Of a stretch of DNA of 35,338 nucleotides, positions 11,527 through 26,965 are shown piece by piece. Origin of the DNA: Ruminococcus sp. (GTDB taxonomy: Bacteria; Bacillota; Clostridia; Oscillospirales; Ruminococcaceae); the NCBI GenBank assembly GCA_014799735.1, contig JAAVHL010000041.1, positions 1 to 35,338 of the forward strand, written 5' to 3'. The notes beneath the pieces were generated by a model that worked only from the letters and a program-made list of their open reading frames with translations, was not told where the DNA came from and ran no database searches. Positions within the stretch are counted from its first letter, which is position 1. Each line of letters starts with the position of its first letter. A program made the position numbers and the translations under genes.

Positions 11527-12210
11527 ATGGACATTCATCTCAGCTACACCGAAAAAGGCGAGGGCGAGCCGCTTGTGCTTCTCCACGGCAACGGCGAAAA
11601 CGGTGATTATTTCGCACATCAGATTGAATATTTTTCAAAACGGCGCAGAGTTATTGCGGTTGACACACGGGGACACGGTAAGTCTCCCCGCGGAGACAAG
11701 CCCTTTACTATTGCGCAGTTTGCGGATGACTTGCTGAATTTCTTGGACGAGCATTGCTTTGAAAAGCCTGATATTTTAGGATTTTCCGACGGGGCAAACA
11801 TTGCGCTGACCTTTGCGTTAAAGCACCCCGAAAGAGTTTCGCGGCTTATTCTCAACGGCGGAAATCTTTCTCCCGACGGCGTGAAACGGCGCGTACAGAT
11901 ACCAATTGAGATAGGGTATAAAATTGCCTCGAAATTTGCGGAGAAAAGTCCCGAGGCAAAGAAAAACGCGGAGCTTTTGGGGCTTATGGTAAACGAGCCG
12001 AATATTTCTCCCGACGAGCTTTCGGCAGTCACGGCGAAAACCCTTGTTATCGCGGGTACGTGTGATATGATAAAGGACAGCCATACCGAGCTTATCGGCA
12101 AAAGCATACTTAATTCACGGACGGTCAAACTAAAGGGAGACCATTTTATTGCAAATAAAAATCCCGAAGAATTTAACCGTGCCGTCGAGGAATTTTTGGA
12201 CGAAAAATAA
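11527..12210 (+). CDS. Alpha/beta hydrolase
   Basis: LVLLHGNGENGDYF, DTRGHGKS, GFSDGANIAL nucleophile elbow, C-terminal GDHF. Start at MDIHLSYTEKG. Confidence 0.9.
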   Translation: MDIHLSYTEKGEGEPLVLLHGNGENGDYFAHQIEYFSKRRRVIAVDTRGHGKSPRGDKPFTIAQFADDLLNFLDEHCFEKPDILGFSDGANIALTFALKHPERVSRLILNGGNLSPDGVKRRVQIPIEIGYKIASKFAEKSPEAKKNAELLGLMVNEPNISPDELSAVTAKTLVIAGTCDMIKDSHTELIGKSILNSRTVKLKGDHFIANKNPEEFNRAVEEFLDEK

Positions 12211-12226
12211 TTTTTTAAATTTTATA

Positions 12227-12358
12227 GGCGCAGTTCATTTGTACCTTCCTGCGCGAAAAAAACCAAGGTAATAAAAAATACCTGCGGTATTTTCAAATCA
12301 AAACCGGGACTGCATATTGCTTTTTATGGGTGCAGTCTGACTGCGCCCATTTTGTTTT
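12227..12358 (+). ncRNA. Structured leader of queD operon: H-type pseudoknot plus terminator/antiterminator; candidate preQ1-type riboswitch
   Basis: P1 GCGCAG (12228-12233)/CTGCGC (12249-12254); loop TACCTT (12242-12247) complementary to AAGGTA (12265-12270) across A-rich linker; hairpin AAAATACC-TGC-GGTATTTT (12275-12293); antiterminator GACTGCA/TGCAGTC (12308-12314/12331-12337) versus terminator GGGTGCAG/CTGCGCCC (12328-12335/12341-12348) plus ATTTTGTTTT. Confidence 0.7.
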
Positions 12359-12370
12359 GGAGGGATTTTT

Positions 12371-12790
12371 ATGTACATATTAAAAACCGAAGCCGCTTTC
12401 GACAGCGCGCATTTTTTAAGCGGCTACAAGGGAAAATGCTCTAATCTCCACGGTCACAGGTGGGTGATCTCGGCGGAAATATCCGATACCGAGCTTTTGG
12501 CAGAGGGACAGCTTCGCGGCATGGTAACGGATTTTGGCGACATCAAGCGGGACTTAAAAAATCTTGCGGACGAATTCGACCATGCATTTATTTATGAAAA
12601 GGGCACTTTAAAAAGTGCAACGGTTGCTGCGCTAAATGAGGAAAATTTCCGACTTATAGAGGTGGATTTCCGTCCCACGGCGGAAAATTTTGCGGAGTAC
12701 TTTTTTATGCGGGTCAAGGAAATGGGTTATAAACCGTACAGAATTACGGTTTACGAAACGCCCAATAATTCCGCGACATTTATGGACTGA
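12371..12790 (+). CDS. queD: 6-carboxy-5,6,7,8-tetrahydropterin synthase (QueD family)
   Basis: FDSAHFLSGYKGKCSNLHGHRWVISAEI, VTDFGDIKRDLK, DFRPTAENFAEYFF; preceded by GGAGGG. Confidence 0.95.
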   Translation: MYILKTEAAFDSAHFLSGYKGKCSNLHGHRWVISAEISDTELLAEGQLRGMVTDFGDIKRDLKNLADEFDHAFIYEKGTLKSATVAALNEENFRLIEVDFRPTAENFAEYFFMRVKEMGYKPYRITVYETPNNSATFMD

Positions 12791-12800
12791 GGTGAATTTT

Positions 12801-13469
12801 ATGCGCACATACAAAATTGCCGAAATGTTTTCCAGCATTAACGGCGAGGGAACTCACGCGGGACAGCTTGCGTTTTTTATTCGGTTCACGGGCTGTAATC
12901 TGAACTGCTCCTACTGCGACACAAAATGGGCGAACGTTCCCGACGCAAAATACACCGAAATGACAGCGGAGGAAATACTGTCCGAGGTGAAAAAAAGCGG
13001 CATAAAAAATGTTACGGTAACAGGAGGCGAGCCGCTTATTCAGCCGAATATTATTCCTTTGCTTGAAACGCTCTGCGGGGACGGTCGTTATGTTGAGATT
13101 GAGACAAACGGTTCTGCGGACGTTTCCGAGGTTGTGAAAATAAAGGGAGAACGTCCCGCGCTCACAATGGATTACAAGCTTCCAACAAGCGGCATGGAGA
13201 GCTATATGCATACCGAAAATTTTGCTGTCCTTGAAAAAAAGGACACGGTAAAATTTGTTGCGGGAAGCCGTGCCGATCTGGAACGCGCTCTTGAAATTAT
13301 TCGGGAGTTTCGGCTTATCGAAAAATGTTCGGTTTATGTCAGTCCCGTTTTCGGGGAAATCGAGCCTGCGGAAATTGTGGATTTTATGCTTGAAAACAAG
13401 CTGAACGGGGTCAATGTTCAGCTTCAGATGCACAAGTTTATCTGGGACCCGAATATGAGAGGTGTATGA
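12801..13469 (+). CDS. queE: 7-carboxy-7-deazaguanine synthase (QueE, radical SAM)
   Basis: MFSSINGEGTHAGQLAFFIRFTGCNLNCSYCDTKWA; CxxxCxxC radical SAM motif, VTGGEPLIQ. Confidence 0.96.
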   Translation: MRTYKIAEMFSSINGEGTHAGQLAFFIRFTGCNLNCSYCDTKWANVPDAKYTEMTAEEILSEVKKSGIKNVTVTGGEPLIQPNIIPLLETLCGDGRYVEIETNGSADVSEVVKIKGERPALTMDYKLPTSGMESYMHTENFAVLEKKDTVKFVAGSRADLERALEIIREFRLIEKCSVYVSPVFGEIEPAEIVDFMLENKLNGVNVQLQMHKFIWDPNMRGV

Positions 13470-13846
13470 TGGACGTTAATTTGAACAGAAATTTTGAGTA
13501 TTATCAATCGGACAAATCACTTCCCTGCGATTGTGCGGGGTGCAGAAATTTTTTCGTACAAATCAAAGAAAAATTTCCCGAACTAAACGAGTATCTGTTA
13601 TCCTTAAATGTGGATATATGTCGTCCGCTGGAGCTTATTTGGGACGAAATCGACAACGATAATAAAATCGAATATTGGGATTGTCAGTACGTTGTTTTCG
13701 GAAACTGCGAGAATGATTTTATTAAAAAAATTGGCAATATTGAATTTAATAAAAATACTAATTGTCACCCAAGCACGGGCATTTCGGAGGAACATTTTGT
13801 GCTTGCTTTCGGTACGATTGTGCTGGATAAAGTAATTGAATTTTAA
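13466..13846 (+). CDS. Conserved-looking hypothetical protein inside the queuosine operon
   Basis: Start overlaps queE stop (ATGATG); 126 aa with CDCAGC cysteine motif. Confidence 0.75.
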
Positions 13847-13862: not shown

Positions 13863-14447
13863 ATGGATAAAATTGATTACGCCGCCATCGAAAAGCATAT
13901 CCGCGGCATACTAAAGGCTTTGGGGGACGACCCCGACCGGGAGGGTTTGCGGGAGACCCCTGCCCGCGTTGCGAAAATGTACGGCGAGGTTTTCGAGGGA
14001 ATGAATTATTCCAATCGGGAAATTGCCGAGATGTTTGCAAAATCCTTTGAAACGAAATACACCGAAAACGATATTGTCATTGTGCGGGACATTGAGGTTT
14101 TTTCCTACTGCGAGCACCACCTTGCGCTTATGTACGATATGAAAGTTACTGTTGCTTACATTCCAAAGGGACGTGTTCTGGGGCTTTCCAAAATCGCCCG
14201 CATTGCTGATATGGCGGCAAAGCGTCTCCAGCTGCAGGAGCGTATCGGCTCGGATATTGCGGAAATTATGCAGCTTGCAAGCGGCTCGGAGGACGTTGCT
14301 GTCTTTATCGAAGCAAGCCACAGCTGCATGACCGCAAGGGGGATAAAAAAGCCCTCCGCCCAGACGGCGACGGTAACTCTGCGGGGACGGTTCGAGACCG
14401 ATACCGCTTTGCAGAACAGGCTCTTTTTGCAGGTGAACATGAAATGA
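13863..14447 (+). CDS. folE: GTP cyclohydrolase I
   Basis: [86 protein letters not shown]. Confidence 0.97.
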
Positions 14448-15217
14448 CGCGGCGTTATATCGACGAGATAATCATGAAAAAGCCCGTTGACAAGAAGTCC
14501 TATTTGGCGGGACTTCCCGCGGTCAGGTTTCTGGAGAAAAGCGGTTCACTGCCCATTAACTCGGACGTGACTTTTTTCGTGGGCGAAAACGGCACGGGAA
14601 AGTCCACCCTTATCGAAGCCATAGCCGTGGCGTGCGGTTTCAATCCCGAGGGCGGGACGAAAAATTTCAGCTTTTCCACGTCGGGGGACGGTGAAAATTT
14701 CCACTCCGACCTGTGGGAGCATATCGCGGTCTCGCGGAGCAGATATCCCAAGGACGGCTTTTTCCTCCGCGCGGAAAGCTTTTTCAACGCGGCTACCTAC
14801 ATTGACGAGCTGGACAAAATTCCTGCGGCAAGTCCGCCTATCATCGAGAGCTACGGAGGGATATCCCTGCATGAGCAGTCCCACGGCGAAAGCTTTCTTG
14901 CGCTTGTGCAAAACCGTTTCCGCGGGAACGGTCTGTACATTCTGGACGAGCCGGAAGCGGCTTTGTCCCCAATGCGGCTGATGACCCTTATCGCGGAGCT
15001 AAGCAGGCTGGTGAAGCAGGATTCACAGTTTATTATAGCGACCCACTCGCCGATACTGCTGGCGTTTCCCGGCGCGGAGGTCTTGCAGCTTTCCGACAGC
15101 GGCATAGAGCGTGTCGGCTACAGGGATACGGAGCATTATCGGGTGACGCGGAGGTTTCTTGAAAATCCCGAAAAAATGCTGAGATATCTTACTGAGAAAG
15201 AAAATGACGAGACGTGA
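14444..15217 (+). CDS. AAA/ABC-type ATPase (COG3910-like)
   Basis: Walker [19 protein letters not shown], signature-like [18 protein letters not shown], Walker [15 protein letters not shown], switch [17 protein letters not shown] overlap with folE. Confidence 0.9.
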
Positions 15218-15248: not shown

Positions 15249-15938
15249 ATGAAAGCACTTGTTTTATTCAGCGGCGGCGTGGACAGCTCCACCTGTCTTG
15301 CGCTGGCGGTAAAAAAGTACGGTTCGGAAAATGTGGTTGCCCTTTCCGTTTTCTACGGACAGAAGCATACTAAGGAAATTCAGGCTGCAAACGCTGTTGC
15401 GGACTACTATGGCGTGGAGCATATCAAGCTTGACCTTAGTCTTATTTTTCAGTACAGCGACTGTTCCCTGCTGGCACAGTCCAAGGAGGAAATTCCTCAC
15501 GAAAGCTATGCGGAGCAGCTTGAAAAAACGGAGGGTTCTCCTGTTTCAACATATGTGCCGTTTCGGAACGGTCTGTTTATTTCGGCGGCGGCAAGCGTTG
15601 CGCTTTCCAAGTACTGCGGCGTGATTTTCTACGGCGCGCACGCGGACGATTCCGCAGGGAACGCTTATCCCGATTGTTCCCCAGCGTTCAACGAGGCTAT
15701 GAATAAAGCCGTCTGGGAGGGCAGCGGCGGACAGGTGAAAATTGAAGCTCCCTTTGTGGGACTAAGCAAGGCGCAGGTGGTGAAAACTGGTCTGGAGCTT
15801 GGCGTCCCCTATGATCTGACATGGAGCTGCTACGAGGGCGGGGAAGTTCCCTGCGGAGTTTGCGGCACTTGTCGGGACAGGCTTGCGGCGTTTGAGGCGA
15901 ACGGCGTTAAAGACCCGCTGGAAAAAACTGACCTGTAA
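15249..15938 (+). CDS. queC: 7-cyano-7-deazaguanine synthase
   Basis: MKALVLFSGGVDSSTCLALAVKKYG PP-loop; VPFRNGLFISAAASVA; C-terminal zinc site CYEGGEVPCGVCGTCRDR. Confidence 0.97.
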   Translation: MKALVLFSGGVDSSTCLALAVKKYGSENVVALSVFYGQKHTKEIQAANAVADYYGVEHIKLDLSLIFQYSDCSLLAQSKEEIPHESYAEQLEKTEGSPVSTYVPFRNGLFISAAASVALSKYCGVIFYGAHADDSAGNAYPDCSPAFNEAMNKAVWEGSGGQVKIEAPFVGLSKAQVVKTGLELGVPYDLTWSCYEGGEVPCGVCGTCRDRLAAFEANGVKDPLEKTDL

Positions 15939-18012: not shown

Positions 18013-18510
18013 ATGTCAGGACGCACAAAAACCGAGACTGAGGGAGTAACTCTCCTCGGAAACCAGAAAACCAAGTACCCCACGGATTACGCCCCCGAAG
18101 TGCTGGAGACCTTTATCAACAAGCACCCCGACAACGACTATTTCGTGAAGTTCAACTGTCCCGAATTTACAAGTCTCTGCCCCATAACCGGTCAGCCCGA
18201 CTTTGCAACTGTGTATATTTCCTACGTCCCCGCGGAAAGAATGGTGGAAAGCAAGTCCCTGAAGCTTTATCTCTATAGCTTCCGCAATCACGGAGACTTC
18301 CACGAGGACTGCATGAACATCATCATGAAAGACCTGATAAAGCTTATGGATCCCAAATATATCGAGGTCTGGGGAAAGTTCACTCCCCGCGGCGGAATTT
18401 CCATAGACCCCTACTGCAACTACGGCAAAAAGGGTACAATGTGGGAGCAGGTCGCGATTGACCGTCTTACTCACCACGATCTGTACCCCGAAAAAATAGA
18501 TAACCGCTAA
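18013..18510 (+). CDS. queF: NADPH-dependent 7-cyano-7-deazaguanine reductase (preQ1 synthase)
   Basis: [71 protein letters not shown]. Confidence 0.98.
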
Positions 18511-25846: not shown

Positions 25847-25872
25847 GCCTCCGCAAAATCGAATAAATGCAA

Positions 25873-26014
25873 TCTGTTTCAGGGCGAGGTGCAATTCCTC
25901 ACCGGCGGTAAAAAATTGCCGACGCAATTTTGAGTCCGCGAGCAGCGTTTAGAATACGCTGCCGATTCGGTGTGATTCCGAAACCGACGGTATAGTCCGG
26001 ATGAAAGAAACATA
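25873..26014 (+). ncRNA. FMN riboswitch (RFN element)
   Basis: TTCAGGGCGAGGTGCAATTCCTCACCGGCGGTA...GAGTCCGCGAGC...GATTCGGTGTGATTCCGAAACCGACGGTATAGTCCGGATGAAAGAAA. Confidence 0.96.
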
Positions 26015-26032
26015 CGCTGCAAATGCGCAAGT

Positions 26033-26840: not shown

Positions 26841-26861
26841 AAAATCACAATCAAATATGCC

Positions 26862-26965
26862 TTATCAAGAGCGGCTGAGGAACTGGTCCTGTGAAGCCCG
26901 GCAACCTAATTACAGTGATGTGAGAAAGGTGCTAAATCCTGCGGAGTTTTCCGAGAGATGAGGAA
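26862..26965 (+). ncRNA. SAM-I riboswitch (S-box)
   Basis: TTATCAAGAGCGGCTGAGGAACTGGTCCTGTGAAGCCCGGCAACCT...AAGGTGCTAAATCCTGCGGAG...GAGAGATGAGG. Confidence 0.97.

Follow-up and report, generated by a model that had tools for sequence, protein, structure and literature searches.

A long-loop leader ahead of the queD operon of a Ruminococcus sp. as a probable class-I preQ1 riboswitch variant

The queD operon and its leader

The window, meaning the whole stretch of DNA that was analysed, comprises 35,338 nt of contig JAAVHL010000041.1 (GCA_014799735.1, Ruminococcus sp., forward strand), and contains a queuosine operon in the order queD, queE, orphan frame, folE, ATPase gene and queC, with queF further downstream on the same contig. 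Since queF is present in the genome, the organism can make preQ1. The orphan frame (13466–13846) has no NCBIfam or Pfam match, and the ATPase gene (14444–15217) is of the AAA type. An FMN riboswitch (25871–26016) and a SAM riboswitch (26859–26964), each far above its Rfam cut-off, are also present in the window. Pattern search of 12050–12450 found no sigma-70-like promoter. The features of the leader and the operon are as follows.

12228–12254, + strand: P1 hairpin, 12228–12233 GCGCAG pairing with 12249–12254 CTGCGC, 15-nt loop at 12234–12248; 4 of 6 pairs vary on both sides among relatives
12241–12245, + strand: conserved P2, 5′ side, GU[A]CC with the A bulged, covarying with 12307–12310
12247–12248, + strand: U and C ahead of the P1 3′ strand, equivalent to type-I U16 and the specificity base C17 (roles in PMC8752633, PMC11625349), invariant in the collected leaders
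12255–12294, + strand: lineage-specific hairpin of about 40 nt inserted in L3 and holding AAGGTA (12265–12270), self-folding here and in relatives, absent in most leaders
12300–12304, + strand: AAAAC, the A-rich close of L3 plus the tail C, matching type-I A27–A30 and C31, invariant in the alignments
12307–12310, + strand: conserved P2, 3′ side, GGAC; one pair occurs as UA, CG, UG or GC, and 99.6% of P2 cells are paired
12308–12314, + strand: antiterminator 5′ arm GACTGCA, overlapping P2 and pairing with 12331–12337
12326–12358, + strand: intrinsic terminator, 11-bp stem at 12326–12350 followed by TTTGTTTT at 12351–12358, −17.1 kcal/mol
12331–12337, + strand: antiterminator 3′ arm TGCAGTC, overlapping the terminator 5′ arm and pairing with 12308–12314
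12359–12363, + strand: Shine-Dalgarno GGAGG of queD, read from the sequence
12371–12790, + strand: queD (TIGR03367, just below cut-off, 88.8 vs 89.25 bits)
12801–13469, + strand: queE (TIGR03963, above cut-off)
13863–14447, + strand: folE, GTP cyclohydrolase I (TIGR00063, above cut-off)
15249–15938, + strand: queC (TIGR00364, above cut-off)
18094–18429, + strand: queF, encoding preQ1 synthase; the coordinates cover the TIGR03139 match (above cut-off)

In the window, the conserved P2 is formed by G12241–C12310, U12242–A12309, C12244–G12308 and C12245–G12307, with A12243 bulged, and the tail AAAACCGGGAC (12300–12310) lies about 37 nt past AAGGTA. The leader folds more stably than its shuffles (z = −3.2). 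Most leaders of closer relatives share a common motif, consisting of P1, a UUCRUUUGYRCCNUC-like loop, the P1 3′ strand, a linker, and AAAACYNGGRC.

A QueD search yielded 66 loci, and covariation was assessed on 66 distinct, ungapped 46-mers from relatives. Most leaders were collected using a sequence pattern that fixed UU, CC, UC, AAAC and GG of loop and tail without constraining P1 pairing or the outer two pairs of P2, so that some letters counted as conserved were set by the pattern; many loci (L067 onward) came from a covariance model and not from the pattern. Across the 66 46-mers, P1 and P2 positions were paired in 99.4% of cases, with 6 of 10 pairs varying on both sides, and none of 500 shuffles matched any measure of P1 and P2 covariation. 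Sliding the partners by 1–3 columns reduced pairing to 33–42%. The second P2 pair (U12242–A12309 in the window) occurred as UA (34), CG (23), UG (8) and GC (1), corresponding on the QueD tree to at least 8 loop changes and at least 9 tail changes, though only 2 comparisons fall on well-supported branches; a sign test of P2 covariation on this tree did not reach significance, having too few supported branches.

Transcription switch, gene context and ligand

Antiterminator and terminator are mutually exclusive in the window. Since the P2 3′ strand overlaps the antiterminator, which excludes the terminator, a ligand-OFF transcription switch is implied. Of 106 leaders, 88% have a terminator of −8 kcal/mol or lower behind the motif; among shuffles the figure is 7%. 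When duplex energies were compared with those for swapped terminators, tails paired better with the 5′ half of their own terminator than with those of others (mean rank 0.30, Wilcoxon p = 2e-8), although related leaders, which are not independent, contribute some of the antiterminator signal. The first antiterminator test, which scored uninterrupted pairing from GGRC, gave a weak excess and was set aside, its pattern having taken the wrong tail in the window and in some relatives. Without the pseudoknot, the terminator fold of the window has a 6 kcal/mol advantage over the antiterminator fold, which means that the ON state must be reached kinetically, with the antiterminator forming first.

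In the proposed mechanism, P1 closes the 15-nt loop, and GU[A]CC of the loop pairs with GGAC past the A-rich linker, producing an H-type pseudoknot, with a hairpin inserted into its linker in this lineage. Abundant preQ1 would complete the P1–P2 stack and keep GGAC in P2; with GGAC held, GACTGCA could not capture TGCAGTC, the terminator would form, and the queD operon would be off, ligand-stabilised P2 thereby leading to termination as repression by product. With no ligand, the antiterminator, whose last base is transcribed ahead of the complete terminator, would keep the operon on.

The motif was found in 36 of 396 genomes sampled from the order and 36 of 392 sampled from the class, and no copy was found on plasmids. 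The genes behind it are most often queD–queE, and otherwise queF, queT, yhhQ-type transporters, queC, a ribonucleoside hydrolase with an ECF S component, and RaSEA-like radical SAM proteins beside yhhQ. Several genomes in which the motif stands before a transporter lack a match over cut-off to either QueF or QueC.

In L067, L068, L069, L072, L085, L097, L099 and L124, the motif is followed by a yhhQ-type transporter and then an SDR oxidoreductase, and the genomes have no QueF over cut-off; by gene content, they would be salvage-only, and the SDR protein may take part in queuosine metabolism. Behind the motif of L100 and L101 lie genes for a ribonucleoside hydrolase (perhaps QueK-like) and an ECF transporter S component akin to the CD3073 family, and together they may form a queuosine salvage operon. 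The RaSEA-like radical SAM protein adjoining the yhhQ-type transporter behind the motif in L094, L095, L104 and L105 is possibly a queuine lyase (QueL-like, putative). In L078 (G201:C1:940535-943247), the motif is immediately followed by a transposase-like frame on the opposite strand, and QueF is encoded about 2.4 kb downstream; an insertion may have separated the riboswitch from its gene.

An HgdB-like protein (Pfam HGD-D; a weak relative of double-cubane reductases) and an HgdC-like activase are encoded as a pair in an operon with queD, queE, folE and queC, in some motif-bearing Clostridia and one Fusobacteriia MAG (L034, 1174–4959; L173, 411–4680; L174, L175 and L176), several of these operons lying behind the motif. 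Homologous pairs adjoin queD/queE or queC in L196, L198, L201 and L203, loci outside the motif search. The whole genomes that carry these loci, other than that of the Fusobacteriia, had no QueF over cut-off, and QueC was confirmed in G434, G489, G513 and G525. As a non-orthologous replacement for QueF in preQ0 reduction, the pair is a good candidate. A literature search found no paper joining double-cubane proteins with queuosine, and the QueF/preQ0 papers found were without 2-hydroxyacyl-CoA dehydratase.

The reading held with good confidence is that the leader is a preQ1-sensing, transcription-terminating class-I (type-I-like) riboswitch of a long-loop variety. The sequences themselves show that the pseudoknot is conserved and covaries, and they show the terminator, the overlapping alternative pairings, the gene context and class-I homology. 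Which ligand binds, in which direction it controls the operon and how many copies of it bind (two, should the type-I pocket be preserved) are deduced. Among metabolites, preQ1 would fit all gene contexts best. The same architecture could serve another 7-deazaguanine such as preQ0 or queuine, given that the window operon makes preQ0, that class-I types vary in how well they reject preQ0 (PMC10622847), and that some relatives' motifs precede salvage-like genes; this is improbable, however, since the contact bases are those of preQ1 sites, and since queF and transporter genes lie behind the motif, including in genomes without QueF or QueC over cut-off, where QueF would not convert preQ0 to preQ1. 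A ligand-independent attenuator or protein-binding leader, which the terminator/antiterminator pair by itself would also suit, is very improbable, since unpaired loop and L3 bases are near-invariant across families with differing downstream genes, at class-I preQ1-contact positions.

The hairpin inserted in L3

In the original prediction, the functional pseudoknot was formed by TACCTT (12242–12247) and AAGGTA, and the leader was possibly a new riboswitch class. The complementarity stands, with six perfect pairs in the window at −4.7 kcal/mol as a bare duplex, but its role as P2 does not, AAGGTA being part of an insert that most relatives lack. The L3 inserts of the window and of related leaders having one fold alone at −4 to −15 kcal/mol, AGGUA is base-paired inside the insert in the window, and the insert is followed by the same short linker as elsewhere; RNAalifold gave no consensus fold for the inserted hairpins. 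The motif is present in all 21 genomes of the genus, the loop is unchanged in leaders that lost AAGGTA, and the conserved tail lies elsewhere, at GGAC. Since the insert is self-folding, and AAGG occurs in the linker of just 3 of the 14 leaders examined in the genus, the insert is most readily understood as a hairpin that the RNA tolerates, rather than as a partner in the pseudoknot, and the pairing first proposed is hardly tenable as the functional one.

The remainder of the prediction fared better. P1 with its 15-nt loop, as well as the antiterminator (GACTGCA/TGCAGTC) and the terminator running up to the queD Shine-Dalgarno, were found where it had placed them, and the proposal of a preQ1-type H-type pseudoknot and terminator ahead of a queuosine operon is supported, with GGAC (12307–12310) as a different P2 partner. 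The pseudoknot covaries, as had been asked of a genuine one, in the 66 relatives, as P1 and the GGAC P2. The class-I 3′ motif, thought to be missing, is present as AAAAC, displaced by the inserted hairpin.

Relation to known preQ1 riboswitches

At Rfam cut-offs, no riboswitch was found at the leader or in 20 relatives. RF00522 gave the window leader 15.5 bits against a cut-off of 39, aligned to the wrong tail, was above cut-off in 0 of 33 motif-bearing genomes, and did not match the Eubacterium ramulus ATCC 29099 leader (L054) even at E <= 10. The class II and III covariance models had no match up to E = 10 over 12190–12400, nor did they reach the gathering score in any of 20 relatives. The original prediction, which left the leader without a class, was right in that the standard models do not assign one. 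PyrR, LhrC and other weak Rfam matches on the leader were rejected, being far under their cut-offs with implausible alignments.

A covariance model built from the long-loop motif (R1) also matches leaders with 12- and 14-nt loops, and loops of 12, 14, 15 and 16 nt occur in one family. The 12-nt-loop leaders L161, L162 and L169 were found via RF00522 under its cut-off and are given 34–39 bits by R1, and the loop of L161 and L169, UUCGAAACCAUC, is identical to that of L143, which has 55 bits on RF00522. Since R1 and RF00522 share matches, and this loop is common to L161, L169 and L143, loops of 12 to 16 nt are taken as one series. The suggestion of a new class is unsupported, because the 12- and 14-nt-loop relatives link the leader to class-I type-I preQ1 riboswitches, and from its sequence the leader is very probably a long-loop, long-P2 variant of class I (type-I-like). 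L161, L162, L169, L115, L116 and L124, all class-I-like with 12-nt loops, have 23–28 bits on RF00522 (cut-off 39), and Rfam appears to miss many such preQ1 riboswitches in Bacillota. L042, on a contig filed as Alistipes senegalensis, is a que locus of clostridial type; its loop has 16 nt, and an additional base in the tail matches it, producing an added A–U P2 pair. The binning of this contig looks doubtful.

In the type-I structure, G5–C18, U6, U7, U16, C17, A30 and C31 contact the two preQ1 molecules (PMC8752633, PMC11625349), and their equivalents are kept in 106 leaders, some of these letters being pattern-fixed. Among the 93 leaders whose loop is 15 nt long, position 32 is C in 80 and U in 13; in those with 12- or 14-nt loops it is U in 12 of 12. 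The window leader keeps the C8 equivalent (C12236) and has C12305 at position 32, so it does not have the C8/U32/CUA ceiling; P2 of the 15-nt-loop leaders gains Watson-Crick pairs.

In sum, covariation of P1 and P2, the kept preQ1-contact bases, the terminators, the que gene context and QueF in the genome speak for a preQ1-sensing class-I riboswitch, against which stand the 15.5 bits on RF00522, C at position 32, the pattern-fixed letters, and the terminator fold favoured by 6 kcal/mol. A more tentative proposal, possible but not the expected outcome, is that the long-loop RNAs are a fourth functional type of class I, in which C in place of U32 and the extra P2 pairs would rebuild the pocket ceiling, altering ligand number or selectivity relative to type I, coupled to termination. 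Types I–III of class I were reportedly defined in a 2014 paper. A literature search found no paper on a long-loop variant, though the 2014 type-I set may already include part of the group. Nor did it turn up a preQ0 riboswitch, or any preQ1 riboswitch designated class IV or type IV.

The leader, a relative of the smallest preQ1 riboswitches known, very probably represents a queuosine-control RNA present in many Clostridia and invisible to standard annotation (Rfam 15). Its natural series of 12-, 14-, 15- and 16-nt loops offers a test bed for pocket rebuilding in a very small aptamer, and the genes found with it suggest queuosine functions that are still to be assigned, among them a candidate QueF replacement (preQ0 reductase) and candidate salvage genes.

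With class-I type-I riboswitches (RF00522; Carnobacterium antarcticus structure, PMC8752633), the window leader shares an H-type P1/P2 pseudoknot joined by an A-rich L3 ending in invariant AAAAC, UU after the P1 5′ strand (12234–12235) and UC before the 3′ strand (12247–12248), both invariant in relatives partly through the collection pattern, the conserved tail C31 (C12304), equivalents of G5–C18, U6, U7, C8, U16, C17 and A30, and association with queuosine genes. It differs from them in its 15-nt loop (12 nt in the Carnobacterium aptamer and the RF00522 consensus), extra Watson-Crick P2 pairs, C and not U at position 32, the hairpin in L3, control by a terminator, and a score far under the RF00522 gathering score (15.5 of 39 bits). 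Class-I type-II riboswitches (Bacillus subtilis, Thermoanaerobacter tengcongensis) likewise form an H-type pseudoknot with an A-rich L3, and that of Bacillus subtilis also controls transcription (PMC11625349), but types II and III have AC before the P1 3′ strand, where the window leader and its relatives have UC. Class II and III preQ1 riboswitches share the preQ1 ligand and queuosine transport genes, and class III is found in Ruminococcaceae too, but both form HLout pseudoknots with other conserved sequences.
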